38,631 nucleotides of DNA from Actinomycetota bacterium (GTDB lineage Bacteria > Actinomycetota > CADDZG01 > WHSQ01). Shown here in pieces: positions 2,965 to 35,977 of this stretch. Position 1 is the first letter of the stretch; each line of letters opens with the position of its first letter. The notes beneath the pieces were generated by a model, which worked only from the letters and a program-made list of their open reading frames with translations, was not told the origin of the DNA and made no database searches. The stretch spans positions 20,284-58,914 of the forward strand of contig WHSQ01000013.1 of assembly GCA_009380005.1 (NCBI GenBank), in the 5' to 3' direction. The position numbers and the translations under genes are program-made.

Positions 2965-4411
2965 TCAGTTGTAGTGCCGCAGGGCTGGCCATACCTCCGA
3001 CCATGAATCGCGCGGCCCATCTGCGATCCAGATAGAGGCTCCATACTCCTCGTTCTTGAGGCCGGCCTCGTTCGTGATGGCTCCGATCCGCTCCACACCG
3101 ACGAAGAACCTGTCCAAGTACTCGCGGGAGAAGTGCCCGACTATCAAGACTGTCCCTGCATCGGGTGGACCCCACAGCCAGTAGTTGTTGTGGCCACTGC
3201 TCGCGCTCGGCAGGCCAAACTCCGGACCGTAGAGATCGATCGCCCCCGCCTCCCCATAGCTAAGCGTAAATACCGTTGCCCGAGCCTGCCGTCCCGTGGG
3301 AAGCGTCCTGTAGGCGGAAGCCACTTGCCGAGTAAATGACTCCCACCCGTAAGTCTCTCCCAACTCCTGATTCATCTCATTGAAGGGCGTTTGGGCGAGC
3401 ACTTCGGGCGGAAGCAACGGAACGGCGACGGGAAGCCCGGCGACGCCCCCGACCACAACCGCCGCCAAAACCCGTCTCCTGGTGAGCCATCGTTTGGGCC
3501 TTTCTAGGAACCTCTCTGTCGCCACGGCTCCCGCGCCCAGTAACGGCACGTAGAGAGGGGCGAGGAAATAGGGTTTCGAAGACAGCGCGACGAACGTGAC
3601 GATCAAGACGACGAAGGTCCAACCCACGAAGCGGTAGGGCATCATGCGCTCATCGCGGAAGAACGAACGCAGACCCGCGATCCAGATCGGAAGGGCGACC
3701 GGACCGATGAACAACACCTGCAGGGGAAGGAAGAGGAAAGAGTTCGCCTCATGGACTCCTTCGGCGTAAAGGCTCTCGGCCATTTCGAAAAAGGGCCAAC
3801 CATTCTGAGTTTGCCAGATGAGATTCGGCAACCACATCACAATTGCGATCGCCACGCCGAGCCACAAGAGCGGGGCGCGCAGGAGACGCCGGTGCTCCGT
3901 CATCAACACACCTAGAAAGAGCGCTCCGGCGACGAAGAGAACCGTCCATTTATTGAGGAGGCCGATGCCCGCCACCGCGCCGGCGAGCAGCCAGAGGCGC
4001 TGCTCCCCCGTCTGGATCACCCGGAGCACGAGGTAGATCAGCAACGCCGAGACCAGAACATCGAATGTCGTGGTACTGAGGAGGTGCCCGAGCGCCAGGA
4101 AGATCCCGGCGGCGCCGGTTGCAAGGGCAGCGAGCGCCTGGGCGAATGTTCGGCCTCCGAATCGTCGAGCGAACGCTCCTGCAAGTGCGATAAGGCCACC
4201 GATCGAGATGGCCGGCAGGAGTCTCAGGGTGAACAACGAGTGATCAAACACACCGGTCAACCAAGCAACCAACGGGGTCAGGGGGGCTGGTCTATGTAGC
4301 CCCACGCCAGTCGCTCGCCCGCTTCAATGAAATAGAGCTCGTCTCGGTGATGCCCGTAACGACCACTCATCGCGAGAAGGAGGGCCACGACACTGAACGC
4401 GATGACCCAAA
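2965..4411 (-). pseudogene. GT39 family glycosyltransferase (ArnT/PMT-like), interrupted by IS21 and frameshifted
   Basis: A polytopic membrane glycosyltransferase that would transfer a sugar from a polyprenyl-phosphate donor on the outer face of the membrane. The catalytic first loop is visible as [20 protein letters not shown] followed by QPP, then about ten hydrophobic helices and a soluble C-terminal tail. Two lesions break it. First, after the codons for QPP the frame needs seven C's (minus strand) but only six are present (G run 4281-4286 on the plus strand), so the frame stops; the next frame continues exactly with [12 protein letters not shown]. Second, an IS21 element cuts the gene after base 4411, and the first 12 codons lie beyond the IS at 6405-6441. 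Joined and repaired, the protein is about 494 residues, a normal size. The frameshift could be a sequencing error; the IS insertion cannot. Confidence 0.82.
4407..4411. repeat. Target-site duplication, left copy (CCAAA)
   Basis: The five bases CCAAA directly before the left IS end are repeated directly after the right IS end at 6400-6404, as expected for an IS21-family transposition (4-8 bp duplication). One copy belongs to the GT39 reading frame. Confidence 0.85.
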
Positions 4412-4461
4412 TGTAGGAGATCACGAATAGTGCTCTGAGTTGATCACGAAAAGTGCACAGG
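4412..4461 (+). repeat. IS21 left terminal inverted repeat region
   Basis: Starts TGTAGG. Contains two related boxes, GATCACGAATAGTGC (4420-4434) and GATCACGAAAAGTGCACAGG (4442-4461), which are probable IstA binding sites. Pairs with 6350-6399. Confidence 0.8.
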
Positions 4462-4557
4462 CCTCCGGGAGACCGGGGGCTTCTTCTTTGTCGGGAAAAG
4501 AGGCGTCCCTCCCGCCAGGCTGCGGTTGTCGAAGACCTCAGCCGACAGGAGGGACAC

Positions 4558-5592
4558 GTGTTCAACAAGGAGATATGGATGGACCTACATGCACTGCACC
4601 GTCAGGGTTGGAGCATCGCCGCTCTGGCGCGCGAGTTCAACCTCAACCGCAGAACCGTCGCTCGCTACGTCGACGCGCCCGAGGCCCCGACCTATGCCGG
4701 CCGTGACTGTCCCGCCGATCTCGCACCCGATCAGCTAGCCCACGTCGTGCGCCGCCTCGAGGTCTGCAAGACGATCCGGGCGACGACCCTTTATCGCGAG
4801 GTGACCGAGCTCGGCTATGAGGCCAGCTACGTGAGCTTCGCCCGGCGGGTCCGGCTGCTTCGAACGATCGAGCCCAAAGAGCCCGAGGTCCGCTTCGAGA
4901 CCGATCCCGGCGTCCAGGTCCAGATGGACTGGACCGAGCTCGGGCGCTGGCAGCTCGCCGACACCATGGTCGAGCTCAAGGCATGGGTCGCGGTCCTGGG
5001 CTTCTCGCGCGCGGTCGCGTTGCGCTTCGCGACCGACAAGACGCGCGCCACGACGCTCGAGCTGATCCCGCAGGTGTTGAATGATCTCGGCGGCGTCCCT
5101 CAAGAGGTCCTGACCGATCGCGATCCTGCGCTCGTGATCGGCGAGACGTCCGACAAGCGGGCGATCTTCGCATCGGAGTGGGTCGATCTGGCGCTGTCGC
5201 TCGGGACTATGCCCAAGGCATGCCGTGCCTATCGCGCCAAGACCAAAGGCAAGGTCGAGCGCGTCATCAGAGAGATCAAAGAGGACTTCTTGCCGTGGTT
5301 AACCGGCCAAGCCCTGCCACCGGGTCCGTCACTCGCCGACTACCAAGCGCTCGCTCGGAGATGGTCACTAGATGTCGTCGGGACCCGGCGCCACCGCACC
5401 ACCGGGCGCATCGTCGCCGAGACGTGGCTCGAGGAGCAGCCGTTGCTGACACCGATCCCGATGAGATTGCTGCAGCACTCGCGCGGCACACACGTTCACA
5501 CAGCTGATGTGATCGACCTCTCGGCGATCAAGGCGCAGGGCGCGCTCGTGGAGCATCGCAGCCTCGATGCCTATGGGCTGGTGGCGCCGTGA
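4558..5592 (+). CDS. istA: IS21 transposase IstA
   Basis: DDE-type transposase that cuts and joins the IS ends together with IstB. The N-terminus has a helix-turn-helix ([17 protein letters not shown]) for end recognition. The catalytic core shows the three acidic positions in context: [17 protein letters not shown] and [12 protein letters not shown]. The start is GTG 4558, directly preceded by a strong AGGAGGGA ribosome site; the longer open frame upstream would begin inside the IS end. The product is 344 residues, at the short end for IstA. The stop overlaps the istB start by four bases (GTGA), implying coupled translation. Confidence 0.92.
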
Positions 5593-6344
5593 ACGAGTCG
5601 ACCTATCAGCGTTTGCGAGGCCACCTCGCCTATCTCGGTCTTTCGACCGCAGCCGAACATCTCGCCGCGCATCTTGATGATCCCAAGGCGTCGGTCACCG
5701 AAGTGCTGGAGTCCCTGCTGTCACAGGAAGTCGAGGGAACACGCACGCGCCGCACCGCAGGACGCCTGCGCTTCGCCCACTATCCACTCAAAAAGAAGCT
5801 TGCCGACTTCGACTTCAGCTTCCAGCCAAGCCTCGATCGCAAGGTCGTGGCCGAGCTGTCGACGCTGCGCTTCGTCGAAGATCATCGCAACGTGCTGTTG
5901 TTGGGACCGCCCGGGGTCGGAAAGACCCACCTCGCGATCGCGCTCGGCATCGCCGCGACCGAAGCCGGCTATCGCACCTACTTCACCTCGGCTCAGGATC
6001 TCGTGCGTCATCTCGGCCAGGCGCACCGCGACGGGCGCTTCAACTCCAAGATGCGCACCTACACGGGACCGAGCGTGCTCGTGATCGACGAGCTCGGCTA
6101 TCTGCCGATGGATGCCGAGTCGGCGCATTGGATCTTCGAGGTCGTCACCCGCCGCTACGAGCGCGGGTCGATCGTGTTGACTTCCAACCGCGGCTTCGCG
6201 GAGTGGGGTCAAGTCTTCGCAGACACCGTCGTCGCGTCCACGATCCTGGACCGGCTCTTGCATCACTCGACGGTCATGAACATCAAGGGCAAGTCGTTTC
6301 GGATGCGGGCCCACGAGGACCAGGAGGTGGTCGCTATGCTGTGA
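5589..6344 (+). CDS. istB: IS21 helper ATPase IstB
   Basis: AAA+ ATPase of the DnaC/IstB type that assembles on target DNA and stimulates IstA. Walker A is GPPGVGKT (residues 106-113). Walker B is VLVIDELGYLP. The sensor I region is IVLTSNRGFAEW. The length of 251 residues is normal. The start GTG 5589 overlaps the istA stop, and the end lies five bases before the right inverted-repeat region. All motifs are intact. Confidence 0.93.
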   Translation: MNESTYQRLRGHLAYLGLSTAAEHLAAHLDDPKASVTEVLESLLSQEVEGTRTRRTAGRLRFAHYPLKKKLADFDFSFQPSLDRKVVAELSTLRFVEDHRNVLLLGPPGVGKTHLAIALGIAATEAGYRTYFTSAQDLVRHLGQAHRDGRFNSKMRTYTGPSVLVIDELGYLPMDAESAHWIFEVVTRRYERGSIVLTSNRGFAEWGQVFADTVVASTILDRLLHHSTVMNIKGKSFRMRAHEDQEVVAML

Positions 6345-6349
6345 TCAGA

Positions 6350-6399
6350 CCTGTGCACTTTTCGTGATCGGAAGTGTGCACTTTTGGTGGTCGCCTACA
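6350..6399 (-). repeat. IS21 right terminal inverted repeat region
   Basis: Read on the minus strand it begins TGTAGG and contains two AAAAGTGCAC boxes, the inner one (GATCACGAAAAGTGCACAGG) identical to that of the left end. The outer box is diverged. Confidence 0.8.
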
Positions 6400-6552: not shown

Positions 6553-6602
6553 GTGGGGCCGGCTGGACTCGAACCAGCGACCAACGGATTATGAGTCCGC
6601 CG
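6553..6602 (-). repeat. attL-like direct repeat: 3' half of a tRNA(CAT) gene
   Basis: Fifty bases identical to 10338-10387, covering the tRNA 3' end, T arm, variable loop and anticodon stem-loop of the intact tRNA(CAT). After 6602 the match ends abruptly, and the D arm and 5' acceptor strand are missing, so this is not a tRNA gene. It is the scar expected when an element integrates into a tRNA 3' half. Confidence 0.85.
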
Positions 6603-6704
6603 GCTCGCAAGCTCATCACCAGGCACGTCGCGTGTCTTACCTGTTCACCCCCGGATTCCGACAAACGCGGACAGCCACCGACATACACGTAAGAACGCGC
6701 CGCA

Positions 6705-6726
6705 TGCTGACTGTCTGCTGACTGTC
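6705..6726 (+). repeat. Paired TGCTGACTGT motif near the left island end
   Basis: Two copies of TGCTGACTGT separated by one base, about 100 bp inside the left repeat. A similar pair lies about 85 bp inside the right repeat at 10233-10255 in the same orientation, and both continue into a related (C/T)TCGTCTT-like tail. They could be arm-type recombinase sites; this is inference. Confidence 0.4.
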
Positions 6727-6886
6727 CTTTGTCTTTCGAAGGACTGAAAATCCGCCGCTCATGCTGACCGTGCTCAATCCCTGCGGCCTGGGGTCAACCG
6801 GGACCGCCTGCTCCAGGAGTAGGTCATGGCTCGATGAATCACGTCGGGCGGCGGTCCAGGTCCCGTGCGCACGCCCGGCGGGGGCG

Positions 6887-6892
6887 TACCCT
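6887..6892 (+). promoter_or_regulatory. Candidate -10 box for leaderless HD/LuxR gene
   Basis: TACCCT ends seven bases before the ATG at 6900. It fits TANNNT with transcription starting at or next to the start codon. No good -35 box is visible. Confidence 0.35.
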
Positions 6893-6899
6893 TCAACGA

Positions 6900-8501
6900 A
6901 TGGCGGAGCAAATATCGCCTGAGGGCGAGCCCGTCCGGACCGCCGAGGTCATCGCCGCGGCGTGCCTGGCCACCGACCTGGGCATGGGGTTTCCGTTCGA
7001 GCACGGCCTGCACGGAACGCTCATGGCCATGAGGCTCGCCGATCTGCTCGATGTTGGTCGCGAGGCCAAGTCGCAGACCTACTACGCCTCTCTCCTGGTG
7101 TACTCGGGGTGCACGACGGACCTGGAAATAGCACGCATCTTCGCGGGGAGCAGGACCGAAAACTTCACCCCCAGGATGATGGGATCGCCGCTGGAGGCAT
7201 TTTCGGGGTTCGTCCATGCCCTCCCTCCTCCAGACGCCCCCCCTCTACAACGCGCTTACGAGGTCGGGAGGCGGCTGATTCCACTGGGGAGATTCGTGAA
7301 ACCCCACCTCACGGCCCTCTGCGAGGTCGCAGAGATGATGGCGAAGCGGCTCGGTCTGCCCCCGGCTGTGCACAAACTGTTCGTCCTCCTGACCGAGCGC
7401 TGGGACGGAAAGGGGATGCTGAAGCGAGCGAAGGGAGAGGAAGTCCCCTTGCCTTTTCGCATCGTCGGCGTCGCGCGCGACGCCGCCTACCAGCGGATCC
7501 TGGGCGGGGACGATTATGCCGTAGAGGTGATCAGCAGGCGGGCCGGGCACGCCTTCGACCCCCGCATCGCGGCCCGGTTCATCGAGGAGGCGCCGGAGGT
7601 CCTGGCCGCGGCGGACGGAGCCGGCCCGGCGTGGGAGGCGATCCTGGCCGCCGAGCCTCGCCCCTGGCTGACGCTGGAGGATGAGGGGGTCGACCAGGCG
7701 CTCGCCGCCATCGGCGACTTCGCCGACCTCGTCTCGCCCCACCTTTCTGGACACTCGAGCGGGGTGGCCGAACTCGCGGAGACGGCTGCCCGGCTCTGCG
7801 GCTTCGGTCCCTCCGAGGTCGCCCTCGTGCGGCGGGCGGCGTTCGTGCACGACGTGGGACGCGTCGCGATCGACCCGCGGGTCTGGCAGAAGCCGGCGGC
7901 CCTCACGGTCGATGAGTGGGAGCAGGTGCGACTGCACCCCTACCACACCGAGCGCGTCATGCTCCACCCCGGCTTCCTCGCCTCGCTGGCCGAGCCGGCG
8001 TGCGCGCACCACGAGCGGCTCGACGGGGACGGGTACCACCGAAGGATGTCGGCCCCGGCGCTCACCCCGGCCGCCCGCCTCCTCGCCGCCGCCGACGCGT
8101 TCCACGCTATGCGCGAACCGCGCCCGTACCGGCCCGGACTCTCACCGGAAGAAGCCGCAAGGCTCCTCAGCGAGGACGCGCACGCCGGTCGTCAGGACTC
8201 CGAGATGGTCGCCGCCGTGATCGAAGCCGCGGGGCAGCCGGCGCCGCCGGTTGAGCGCCCGGCCGGGTTGACCGAACGGGAGGCCGAGGTCGTTGGGCTC
8301 CTCGCCCGGGGCCTCCAAACGAAGCAGGTGGCCAGAAGACTCGGTATCTCGGTCAAAACGGCCGATCGCCACATCCAGAACGCCTACAGGAAGATCGGCG
8401 TCTCCAGCCGTACCGCCGCCACGCTGTTCGCCATGGAGCACGGCCTGGTGCCGGCGGCGGGGCCTACGGAGAATCGGTTCGGGACCGATTCCCCGCGCTG
8501 A
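6900..8501 (+). CDS. HD/HD-GYP-like domain protein with C-terminal LuxR-type HTH
   Basis: A 533-residue cytoplasmic protein. The first half looks like a degenerate HD-type helical domain (YYASLLVYSGCTTD where an HD pair would sit). The second domain keeps H317-D318 (VHDVGRVAI) and HHERLDGDGYH (from residue 370), close to HD-GYP but with GYH in place of GYP. Residues about 457-512 form a LuxR/FixJ-type helix-turn-helix (LTEREAEVVGLLARGLQ, VARRLGISVKTADRHIQ). No receiver domain is present, so the HD part is the likely sensor or ligand site. I chose ATG 6900 rather than 6834 because the 22 extra residues are Arg-rich filler and a TANNNT box precedes 6900. Probably regulates the two genes downstream. 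Confidence 0.8.
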   Translation: MAEQISPEGEPVRTAEVIAAACLATDLGMGFPFEHGLHGTLMAMRLADLLDVGREAKSQTYYASLLVYSGCTTDLEIARIFAGSRTENFTPRMMGSPLEAFSGFVHALPPPDAPPLQRAYEVGRRLIPLGRFVKPHLTALCEVAEMMAKRLGLPPAVHKLFVLLTERWDGKGMLKRAKGEEVPLPFRIVGVARDAAYQRILGGDDYAVEVISRRAGHAFDPRIAARFIEEAPEVLAAADGAGPAWEAILAAEPRPWLTLEDEGVDQALAAIGDFADLVSPHLSGHSSGVAELAETAARLCGFGPSEVALVRRAAFVHDVGRVAIDPRVWQKPAALTVDEWEQVRLHPYHTERVMLHPGFLASLAEPACAHHERLDGDGYHRRMSAPALTPAARLLAAADAFHAMREPRPYRPGLSPEEAARLLSEDAHAGRQDSEMVAAVIEAAGQPAPPVERPAGLTEREAEVVGLLARGLQTKQVARRLGISVKTADRHIQNAYRKIGVSSRTAATLFAMEHGLVPAAGPTENRFGTDSPR

Positions 8502-8533
8502 TCCCAGGCCCTCAACGCTGAGCCTTGCATCTG

Positions 8534-8576
8534 GGGAGAACTCCCGATTTCCCCGCACCCCGACCGTCAGTACGTT
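8534..8576 (+). promoter_or_regulatory. Candidate LuxR-type operator and promoter of the membrane protein/monooxygenase operon
   Basis: GGGAGAACTCCC (8534-8545) has perfect 5-bp arms around AA. TACGTT (8571-8576) is a TANNNT -10 box six bases before the ATG at 8583. If transcription starts at that ATG the palindrome is centred near -43, where LuxR-family activators typically bind. The -35 position (TTTCCC, 17-bp spacer) is poor, as expected for an activated promoter. Confidence 0.45.
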
Positions 8577-8582
8577 GACGCC

Positions 8583-8987
8583 ATGGAGAGCGCCCACCAG
8601 CCTGACGCCCGAGACCCCGCCCCGGGGGAGGCCGCTCGCCGTGTAGGCGTCCTGTCCGCCGCCGTCACCGCTCCCGCGCTCTCCGCGCTGGTCCTGATCA
8701 CCGCGGCGGGAACCGACGCTCACCTGGGCGCATCGCGCTACTGGCCGTGGGTGCCGACGGGGCTCCAGGTGCTCGGGCTGTGGTCCGCGGGGAGCGGGCA
8801 GCGGTGGGGATGGCTCCTCGGAGCCGCGGTCCAGCTGCCGTGGATCGCCTACGCCCTGGTCACCGGGCAGCTGGGGTTCATCCCTGGGTGCGCCATCTCC
8901 GCGGTCGTCCAGGCCCACAGCTTCGCGACGGACCAGTCGCCGGCACGGAGGCAACGGGCCCGCGACGGTGTTCAGGTCTACGTGTGA
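8583..8987 (+). CDS. Small integral membrane protein, about four helices
   Basis: 134 residues with a hydrophilic N-terminus (MESAHQPDARDPAPGE) and about four hydrophobic segments: VGVLSAAVTAPALSALVLIT, a YWPWVPTGLQVLGLWSAG region, WGWLLGAAVQLPWIAYALVTG and FIPGCAISAVVQA. The C-terminus is basic and cytoplasmic in character. I recognise no named family. It begins six bases after a TANNNT box, so it may be leaderless, and ends 11 bases before the monooxygenase ATG, whose ribosome site overlaps the stop region. The two genes are therefore one transcript. It may be a membrane partner for the monooxygenase, which is inference only. Confidence 0.7.
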   Translation: MESAHQPDARDPAPGEAARRVGVLSAAVTAPALSALVLITAAGTDAHLGASRYWPWVPTGLQVLGLWSAGSGQRWGWLLGAAVQLPWIAYALVTGQLGFIPGCAISAVVQAHSFATDQSPARRQRARDGVQVYV

Positions 8988-8998
8988 AGGAGGTCGAG

Positions 8999-10186
8999 AT
9001 GGACATGCACACTGAACGGACCGAGACGCTCGTCATCGGGGGCGGGCAGTCCGGACTCTCGGTCGGATACCACCTGGCCCGACACGGCCTGCCGTTCCTG
9101 ATTGTCGACGCGAACGAGCGGGTCGGGGACGCCTGGCGCAAGCGGTGGGACTCCTTGCGGCTCTTCACCCCCAACCGCGTCAACGGGTTGGACGGGATGC
9201 CGTTCCCCGGCCCCCGCTGGGGATTCCCGACCAAGGACGAGTACGCCGATTATCTCAAGAGCTACGCCGACCGGTTCGAGCTGCCGGTGCGAACCGGCTT
9301 GGAGGTGGACCGGCTGACCCGGAACGGGGACGGCTTCCTCGCGACCGCCGGTGATCGGCGCTTCGAAGCCGAAAACGTGGTCGTCGCGATGTCCTCGTGG
9401 CAGCGCCCGCGGGTGCCGGACTTCGCGTCCGACCTCGATCCCGCGATCGTCCAGCTCCACGTCGCCGACTATCGCAACCCGGAGCAGCTCCGCGAGGGGG
9501 ACGCTCTCCTCGTCGGGGCCGGCAACTCGGGAGCCGAGGTCGCCATGGAGCTCTCGAAGACCCGGCGGGTCTGGCTGTCGGGCCCGGACAACGGTGCCCT
9601 CCCCTTCCGGCTAGAAAGCCACGTGGGGCGCATGTTGGGGCCCTTCGTCGCCCGGGTCATCTTTCATCGGGTCTTTTCCACGGGCAATCCGATCGGACGG
9701 CGGATCCGACCGAAGATTCTCGCGAAGCGCGATCCTCTGATCCGGGTCAAGCCGAAGGACCTCGCCGCTGCGGGAGTGGAGCGGGTGCCGCGGACGACCG
9801 GCGTCGAGGGCGGGTGGCCCAGGCTCGAGGACGGCCGTCGCCTGGAGGTCGCCAACGTGGTCTGGACCTCCGGGTTCCACCCCGGATTCTCGTGGATCGA
9901 GCTGCCCGTGTTCGGGCCGAACGAGCCGAAGCACGATGGGGGAATCGTCGACTCCCAACCCGGCCTCTACTTCGTCGGCCTCCGATTCCTGTACTCGAAG
10001 TCGTCGGAGCAGATCCACGGGGTCGGCCGCGACGCCAACCGCATCGCCGAGGCGATCGCTGCCCGCCGGACGCAACGAGCGGCGGTCGGCCGCGGAGAGG
10101 TTCAGGCCGTGGGTGGGCGCCGTGGACTTGAGAAGACCGCGTCGGCGAGGAGCGCTAACCGACGAGGACCTGCGGATCAGCGATGA
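8999..10186 (+). CDS. FAD-dependent monooxygenase (flavin-containing monooxygenase/CzcO-like)
   Basis: 395 residues. The FAD-binding Rossmann motif is GGGQSG (residues 14-19) after TLVIG, and the NAD(P)H-binding one is GAGNSG (about 173-178) after ALLV. The stretch between, with SLRLFTPNRVNGLDGMPFPG and the YADYLKSYADRF region, is typical of the CzcO/YUC-like group that oxygenates small organic substrates. The start ATG 8999 has a strong AAGGAGG ribosome site (8987-8993); the open frame continues upstream to 8747 but only as a shadow of the membrane gene. The last 30 residues are Arg-rich and unlike the family, perhaps read-through into the island's end. The substrate is unknown. Confidence 0.85.
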   Translation: MDMHTERTETLVIGGGQSGLSVGYHLARHGLPFLIVDANERVGDAWRKRWDSLRLFTPNRVNGLDGMPFPGPRWGFPTKDEYADYLKSYADRFELPVRTGLEVDRLTRNGDGFLATAGDRRFEAENVVVAMSSWQRPRVPDFASDLDPAIVQLHVADYRNPEQLREGDALLVGAGNSGAEVAMELSKTRRVWLSGPDNGALPFRLESHVGRMLGPFVARVIFHRVFSTGNPIGRRIRPKILAKRDPLIRVKPKDLAAAGVERVPRTTGVEGGWPRLEDGRRLEVANVVWTSGFHPGFSWIELPVFGPNEPKHDGGIVDSQPGLYFVGLRFLYSKSSEQIHGVGRDANRIAEAIAARRTQRAAVGRGEVQAVGGRRGLEKTASARSANRRGPADQR

Positions 10187-10232
10187 GCCGGTCGCCTCGG
10201 ATGACATGTGCCGTGCTCCCAATGCACCAACG

Positions 10233-10255
10233 TGCTGACTCTGTGCTGACTCTCC
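10233..10255 (+). repeat. Paired TGCTGACTCT motif near the right island end
   Basis: TGCTGACTCT occurs twice in 22 bases, in the same orientation as the pair at 6705-6726, about 85 bp inside the right 50-bp repeat. Proposed as the counterpart of the left pair. Confidence 0.4.
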
Positions 10256-10292
10256 CTCGTCTTCGCAAATGTCGTCGCGGCTCGCCACGCGA

Positions 10293-10325
10293 GCGGGAAA
10301 GCAGCTCCTGCCAGCGGTTTCCCGC
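10293..10325. other. Inverted repeat next to the right island end
   Basis: GCGGGAAA and TTTCCCGC form a perfect 8-bp stem with a 17-base loop, 13 bases from the tRNA 3' repeat. It lies downstream of the minus-strand tRNA and could end its transcript, but no T run follows. A second small stem (GCTCGC-CAC-GCGAGC, 10280-10294) adjoins it. Confidence 0.35.
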
Positions 10326-10337
10326 GCCTTCACGTGC

Positions 10338-10387
10338 GTGGGGCCGGCTGGACTCGAACCAGCGACCAACGGATTATGAGTCCGCCG
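10338..10387 (-). repeat. attR-like direct repeat within the intact tRNA(CAT)
   Basis: Identical over 50 bases to 6553-6602. Here it continues into a complete tRNA, so this side carries the functional copy restored or kept after integration. Confidence 0.85.
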
Positions 10388-10412
10388 CTCTGACCAGCTG
10401 AGCTACGGCCCC
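10339..10412 (-). tRNA. tRNA with CAT anticodon, probably tRNA-Ile2 (k2C34), possibly Met
   Basis: The minus strand folds as a full cloverleaf. The 7-bp acceptor stem is GGGGCCG/CGGCCCC with discriminator A. The D arm is AGCTCAGCTGGTCAGAGC. The anticodon loop is CTCATAA and the T arm GCTGG-TTCGAGT-CCAGC. CCA is not encoded. The sequence GACTCATAATC and the T arm resemble E. coli ileX (Ile2) more than elongator Met, and there is no initiator-type GGG/CCC anticodon stem. Its 3' half is the integration site of the island. Confidence 0.9.
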
Positions 10413-17555: not shown

Positions 17556-17662
17556 CCGAGTACAACAGGACGAGCGCTGGACGCAGGAAATGTTGTAGTC
17601 GGGCACGACACCCTGCCGAGTGCAACAGGACGAGCGCTGGACGCAGGAAATGTTGTAGTCGG
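17556..17662. repeat. Two tandem 47-bp palindromic units, 60-bp period
   Basis: Units at 17556-17602 and 17616-17662 differ at one base (17562 A, 17622 G). On the minus strand each unit has arms CCGACTACAACA and TGTTGTACTCGG, 12 bp with one mismatch in the unit nearer dgt and two in the other, around a 23-base centre. Spacer pieces share GGGTGTCG. They fill most of the gap between ppdK and dgt. Possible roles are stem-loops in the ppdK-dgt transcript, or paired operators for dgt. Confidence 0.85.
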
Positions 17663-34885: not shown

Positions 34886-35977
34886 TCATTTGAAGGCTTC
34901 CTTGATCTTGTCGAAGAAGCCCGATCCTTGGCCGACCTCGTCACCGTGGAGCTCGGCGAACCGGAGAAGCAGATCGCGTTCCTCGGGCGTGAGGTCCTTC
35001 GGCGTCTCGACCTTGAGCAAGGCCACCAGCTCGCCTCGGCCCCGGCCGTTGAGATGCGGCATACCTCGACCCCGCAGACGGACTACCTCACCGGATTGGG
35101 TACCGGGCTCGATCTCGATGGTCTCGGCTCCATCCAGGGTCGGCACCTCCACGGCCCCCCCGAGCGCGGCGACCGTCATCGGAAGCGGTACCTCGCAACC
35201 GAGGTCGTCACCCACACGCCGGAAGACATCGTGAGGCTGCACGCGGATGCCGACGTAAAGGTCGCCGGCCCGGCCCCCTCGCGTACCGGCCTCGCCGCGG
35301 CCGGAGACGCGCAACTGCGCCCCGTCGTCGACGCCCGGAGGGACGTGAACCGACAACGTGTCTTCCACCGGAACGCGGCCGGCCCCCGAGCACAACCTAC
35401 ATGGGGTGAGGATCTCCTCGCCCCTCCCGCGGCAACGGGGGCATGTCGTCGCGGTCATCATGTTCCCCAGCATCGTTCGACGCACGGTGCGCAACTCGCC
35501 GGTGCCCCCGCAGTCGCTGCATGTCGTGGGGAAGGTGCCGGGGGCCGCTCCCGATCCGTGGCAGTCCGGGCATCCCTGCAAGGTCGTGATCTCCACCTCG
35601 CGCTCGACCCCGGCCGCCGCTTCCTCCAACGTCAGCTCGATCTCGGCGAGGACGTCGGAACCGCGCGCGGGCCCGCTACGCGCCCGGCCACCCATGCCGC
35701 CGCCGAAGAACGACGAGAAGAGATCCGAGATCCCGTCGAAGTCCGCGAACCCCCCGGCACCCGCACGCTCGTCTCCGAACATGTCGTAACGCTGACGTTT
35801 GTCGGGATCCGACAGGACCTCGTACGCGTGGTTCACCTGTTTGAAGTGGTCCGCCGCTTCGGGATCGTCAGGGTTGGCGTCGGGGTGGTACCGCCGGGCT
35901 AGTTGCCGGTAGGCGCGCTTTATCTCTTCCGCGGACGCATCGCGGCTCACACCGAGGATCCCGTAATGATCGGCCAT
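34886..35977 (-). CDS. dnaJ: Chaperone protein DnaJ
   Basis: Hsp40 co-chaperone that stimulates DnaK. 363 residues. The J domain (1-67) has the HPD motif in [12 protein letters not shown] Gly/Phe-rich linker with GGGMGGRA follows. Then come four CxxCxGxG zinc repeats ([32 protein letters not shown]) and the substrate-binding C-terminal domains ([18 protein letters not shown]). It lies three bases after hrcA and so falls under CIRCE/HrcA control. No dnaK or grpE is nearby, so this is the separate hrcA-dnaJ locus. Confidence 0.97.

Follow-up and report, generated by a model that had tools for sequence, protein, structure and literature searches.

A three-gene segment at a tRNA-Met gene of an Actinomycetota bacterium: a probable complete integrative element that lacks an integrase

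The tRNA-Met island and its three genes

The window (the whole stretch of 38,631 nucleotides that was analysed) comes from a fragmented draft assembly of 639 contigs (G000). An island of about 3.7 kb is found on its contig C44, between an intact tRNA-Met gene and a displaced copy of the 3' part of that gene. The two copies match perfectly over 50 of 50 nt in direct orientation (6553-6602 = 10338-10387), within a 53-nt match at 98% identity, and correspond to tRNA positions 26-75, everything from the anticodon arm to the 3' end. ARAGORN places the intact gene at 10338-10412, confirming the tRNA(CAT) 3' repeat described in an earlier note on this DNA. An intact tDNA together with a displaced fragment in the correct orientation, as in tDNA islands, is thus present. 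The features of the locus are as follows.

4412-6398, plus strand: IS21-family element, a neighbour outside the island (istA 4453-5592, istB 5589-6344; NCBIfam equivalogs over cut-off)
6553-6602, minus strand: putative distal att core, the displaced tRNA-Met 3' part (tRNA positions 26-75; 50/50 identity to the intact gene)
6705-6727, plus strand: left (distal) arm-type pair TGCTGACTGTC TGCTGACTGTCC, with sites starting at 6705 and 6716, 103 bp inside the core
6762-6769, plus strand: third left arm-type site TGCTGACC, with one mismatch
6900-8501, plus strand: cargo gene 1, an HD_5 (HD-GYP-like) protein with a C-terminal LuxR/GerE HTH (Pfam; NCBIfam partial matches below cut-off)
8583-8987, plus strand: cargo gene 2, a predicted membrane protein of 134 aa with no Pfam family (relatives in G002:C131 and G000:C33)
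8999-10186, plus strand: cargo gene 3, an FAD/NAD(P)H flavin monooxygenase (Pfam; PDB 4usr/4usq/4a9w)
10233-10255, plus strand: right (tRNA-proximal) arm-type pair TGCTGACTCTG TGCTGACTCTCC, with sites starting at 10233 and 10244, 105 bp from the core
10338-10412, minus strand: intact tRNA-Met(CAT), the target gene, whose 3' part forms the putative proximal att core at 10338-10387 (ARAGORN and direct repeat)

The Pfam identities of the HD_5-LuxR protein and the flavin monooxygenase agree with the cargo of regulator, membrane protein and monooxygenase named in the earlier note, and its statement that no recombinase is present also stands: Pfam revealed none among the interior ORFs between the repeat copies, and a PF00589 search of the organism's own genome gave nothing on C44. 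The gaps left between the island genes are too short for an integrase. None of the three genes is a relaxase or any other conjugation or mobilization gene, the interior carries no ICE, IME or integrase remnant, and a parental element was not found either. Phage, packaging and satellite genes are likewise absent from the island, where PHROGs matches are domain-level or of unknown function only. A defence system was considered as the cargo and rejected, the PADLOC matches being weak and domain-level only.

The right flank (tRNA-Asn, rpoD, dnaG, PPDK) is conserved across the family and the left flank is not; among relatives with contigs covering the locus, none has the left-hand genes beside tRNA-Met. 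The earlier view of housekeeping genes on both sides does not fit the left, where the neighbour of the island is the IS21-family element, next to a frameshifted GT39-like gene. The insertion element has a target duplication, CCAAA, and cuts the 5' end of the GT39-like gene (2965-4305); past the HRDELYF motif of this gene there also appears to be a frameshift. Immediately after the PPDK gene ends, a 47-nt sequence is present twice (17556-17662), the copies being 98% identical and 60 nt apart from start to start.

A second copy of the cargo was found in a relative of another genus in the same family (G002), which matches window positions 6855-10105 at 93% DNA identity. The comparison places the start of cargo gene 1 most likely at 6900, not 6834, and the copy of cargo gene 3 in G002 ends earlier. 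For the regulator and the monooxygenase, dS between the two genomes is 0.14-0.16, with a dN/dS of 0.29 each; for the core genes rpoD, dnaG and PPDK, dS is 1.1-1.7. As the cargo dS is far below that of the core genes, the operon has been transferred recently. The ratios indicate purifying selection on the regulator and the monooxygenase and not clearly so on the membrane protein, for which dN/dS is about 1. The cargo match may, however, reflect misbinning of the 10-kb G002 contig (C131). On this contig the copy has unrelated flanks on both sides, with no tRNA-Met fragment on the contig and no arm pair; the same element broken at a repeat is thereby ruled out, and the cargo is not bound to the tRNA repeats. 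Because the cargo also occurs elsewhere without att sites, the genes and the element may have been transferred on separate occasions. LuxR-type HTH genes beside related monooxygenases recur in the phylum, for example in G035:C213, so that the cargo looks like an ordinary captured module. A paralogue of the HD_5-LuxR regulator, at 61% aa identity, lies about 9 kb to the left of the island on C44, outside the att repeats (L029:17816-19411).

Arm-type sites inside both ends

At each end of the island, about 100 bp inside the core, two 11-bp sites, TGCTGACTNTN, stand in tandem, with one orientation at both ends. The chance expectation for such pairs in the window is 0.01, and no arm site beyond those listed was found inside the island. 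In a set of 61 genomes, G000 plus 60 relatives, positions 6705 and 10233 are the only places with the exact pair, and a 20-base arm pattern has three occurrences in 397 phylum genomes, namely the two island ends and G008:C22. In G008 about 110 bp separate the pair from the anticodon core of tRNA-Met, GATTATGAGTCCGC, and a third arm site is also present at this homologous end; no integrase was found in 5.3 kb of the G008 contig, which is incomplete.

As a closed circle, the island would have the 50-bp core in the middle, with about 100 bp on each side of it, then an arm pair on one side and an arm pair with the third site on the other. Judged by its sequence, this layout is that of a lambda-type attP, and the TGCTGACTNTN pairs match integrase arm-type sites. 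The core repeat and the arm pairs at both ends support the earlier proposal that a tRNA 3' end was the target of site-specific integration. A chance repeat is ruled out, since the copies agree at 50/50 positions in direct orientation and the arm sites are paired. As matching arm pairs stand at both ends, the segment appears to be a complete att-bounded unit and not one surviving end. The earlier note had offered either a minimal passenger or the last part of a larger element; a passenger fits, and the last part is disfavoured by the arm pairs at both ends.

No integrase with matching arms was found in G000 by a scan for TGCTGACT-like pairs, with three mismatches allowed, around twelve integrases, nor was a parental integrase-bearing tRNA-Met element with TGCTGACT arms found. 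Exact-gap scans of viral_contigs gave no virus or phage that combines the tRNA-Met core with TGCTGACT arms, and neither the triple arm sites nor the island regulator had a match there. No mention of TGCTGACT as an arm site was found in open-access literature text, figures not being covered; since figures are unsearchable, the cross-phylum arm motif is not claimed as new.

Scanning 84,980 species genomes for the arm pair gave 95 stretches, 80 of which were analysed as loci (574 kb). Nine intact tRNAs in these loci lie on the minus strand with the 3' end 67-93 bp from the pair, compared with three tRNAs elsewhere. The nine (Thr, Pro three times, Val, Asp, Asn, Arg and Cys) belong to proteobacteria, actinobacteria, Bacteroidota and Acidobacteriota. 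In Nitrincola tapanii (L108) a complete element with the shared arm sites was found: its first end has a tRNA-Val 3' repeat (49 bp, 90%) and three arm sites, about 50 bp beyond these sites begins a tyrosine integrase whose arm-binding domain is PF13356, and the opposite end has an arm pair and the intact tRNA-Val. On an IMG/VR contig (L060) a tRNA 3' fragment stands between two arm pairs, the second of which is followed by an integrase. Most of the 80 loci have neither a tRNA nor an integrase nearby in the stretch examined, so the arm motif alone is no proof of an att site.

A second element in G000 (C332:6653-7990) carries a different 11-bp pair, TGCGGGATTTY, at both ends and with the spacing seen in the island, along with a C-terminal integrase remnant. 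The similar layout of this element and of those in L108 and L060 indicates that the arm geometry is general and that the arm sequence varies between elements. On another G000 contig (L197, C188, about 35712-35890), two 11-bp GCGTGTCCAAN sites stand in tandem about 110 bp after a tRNA-like fragment, likely a third arm-site type in this genome as judged from their sequence. Pairs of the TGCTGACT type also adjoin tRNA-like 3' sequence in G000 (L078, C636:4018-4036) and tRNA-Ile in G002 (L077, C24:4234-4252), with no PF00589 integrase on either contig.

The tRNA-Met gene as a target of repeated integration

Fragments of the tRNA-Met 3' end occur on G000:C332 (three) and in G002 (three), G003, G007, G009 (three) and G012, a distribution that marks tRNA-Met as an integration hotspot. 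The fragments on C332 are 91-94% identical to the gene, and only the island core is perfect. G009 has a small integrase-less segment of 1.6 kb adjoining tRNA-Met and G003 has one of 2.9 kb, neither with matching arms. In G007 (L034, C410:5541-6700) the end of a serine recombinase ORF falls within a tRNA-Met 3' fragment (6654-6700), so a serine integrase may use tRNA-Met too.

Parts of an eCIS-like (contractile-injection) operon lie at the left ends of both C44 and C332 (L029, C44:1-4570; L030, C332:226-4278), inside the region bounded by tRNA-Met fragments. In a related eCIS-like operon (G016:C59), the corresponding parts are on one strand and in one order, about 13.6 kb apart. From this order, C332 most likely continues C44, an inference by synteny; the array would then comprise four displaced tRNA-Met fragments over about 50 kb. 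Being tRNA-proximal and having the sole perfect core, the island is likely the latest arrival.

Nature and origin of the element

Taken together, the segment at 6553-10387 is very likely a complete integrase-less integrative element in tRNA-Met, of a CIME-like type. CIMEs, such as those of the ICESt1/ICESt3 family of streptococci, are att-flanked and integrase-less (PMC5704250, PMC7563491). As in these, both attL and attR are retained here, each with an arm pair and a copy of the 50-bp core (recombination between them being a prediction), and the island has no functional integrase gene and no conjugation or mobilization genes. It also resembles CIMEs in its few cargo genes, in a size within 1.2-13 kb and in its place in an array at the 3' end of the target gene, but differs in that no ICE or IME ancestry can be traced, in being target-proximal instead of distal, and in that no int+ partner element has been identified. 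The Dehalococcoides ssrA islands without an integration module (PMC3146451) are likewise tandem, with RNA-gene 3'-end repeats and many without a recombinase; their integrase is of the serine type and their site a tmRNA, whereas the signature of the island, with arm-type sites and a tRNA anticodon arm, is that of a tyrosine integrase. Islander-type tDNA islands (PMC4383910) share its endpoints, a regenerated tRNA and a displaced 3' fragment, and an anticodon-centred attP, but Islander requires an integrase gene and would filter the island out. Finally, the attP of mycobacteriophage Pixie (PMC3203893) resembles the closed circle, with two direct arm sites on one side, three on the other and a tRNA-overlapping core (47 bp); Pixie is a phage with an integrase and its arms are of the GGGTACAC type, which rules out identity with the arm sites of the island. 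Att-flanked integrase-less elements are thus an already known class, for which the 'undescribed cassette' of the earlier note is too strong a term; what is new here is a member with unusually complete predicted att sites.

From the att anatomy we infer the following recombination history. A lambda-type tyrosine integrase with TGCTGACT arm specificity would have recombined an attP (arms, tRNA 3'-half core, arms) with the anticodon arm of the tRNA. The 3' half brought in by the element would have restored the tRNA, displacing the host's original 3' half to 6553-6602, and both resulting att sites would retain core and arm-type sites. The integrase gene carried by related complete elements would be missing, with the regulator and flavin monooxygenase operon filling the interior. 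If the sites still work, excision would occur only if an integrase with matching arm and core specificity came from elsewhere, in trans or by accretion. As no G000 integrase was found with such sites beside it, the element is probably immobile unless a helper arrives.

The integrase may have been lost by internal deletion from a complete unit; alternatively, the element had no integrase of its own after gaining the cargo and was inserted in trans by the integrase of a helper, as MITEs use a transposase. We regard this second course as possible but rather doubtful. It would account for the tRNA-proximal and hence probably last-arrived position, given that the CIMEs of S. salivarius accretion arrays always lie most distal to the target gene (PMC7563491), and for the perfect core, against 91-94% identity in the C332 fragments; these two features lean slightly toward the in-trans passenger over loss in place. 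The arms shared with the integrase-less G008 end, and the small segments adjoining tRNA-Met in G009 and G003, point the same way, but the G008 contig is incomplete, the two segments lack matching arms, and no helper integrase with TGCTGACT arms was found in the G000 assembly. Still more speculative, and unlikely in our view, is a broader form of this idea, in which tandem 11-bp TGCTGACTNTN pairs would be an arm code common to tRNA-targeting tyrosine integrases across several phyla, and the island would belong to a class that keeps the code and borrows the integrases of helpers in trans, in a MITE-like manner.

The ends could instead stem from two tandem elements of one integrase family, joined by an internal deletion. 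Real tandem arrays do exist at tRNA-Met, as the three fragments on C332 attest, and tandem ends seem present in two Pseudonocardiales loci (L091, L147); nevertheless, the 3.7 kb contain no further tRNA fragment and no extra arm site, and the cargo is a single continuous block, 93% identical to G002, making such a composite quite improbable. Most improbable is a coincidental tRNA repeat beside three genes of native origin or gained by homologous recombination: the regulator-monooxygenase pair recurs in phylum genomes such as G035 and the regulator has its paralogue 9 kb to the left, but the matching arm pairs occur at both ends and at no other place in the genome, a geometry that links the ends and contradicts this reading. 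Moreover, the cargo genes were seen at tRNA-Met in none of 15 family relatives; among these relatives, all from other genera, no exact empty site was found.

For the complete integrase-less element favoured here, the arm-type sites alone delimit the island and bear out both of its ends, and such hitchhikers might be searched for by sequence only; finders such as Islander need an integrase gene and are blind to integrase-less islands. Within the limits of draft genomes, the case also shows that a regulator-monooxygenase operon has recently moved between genera.
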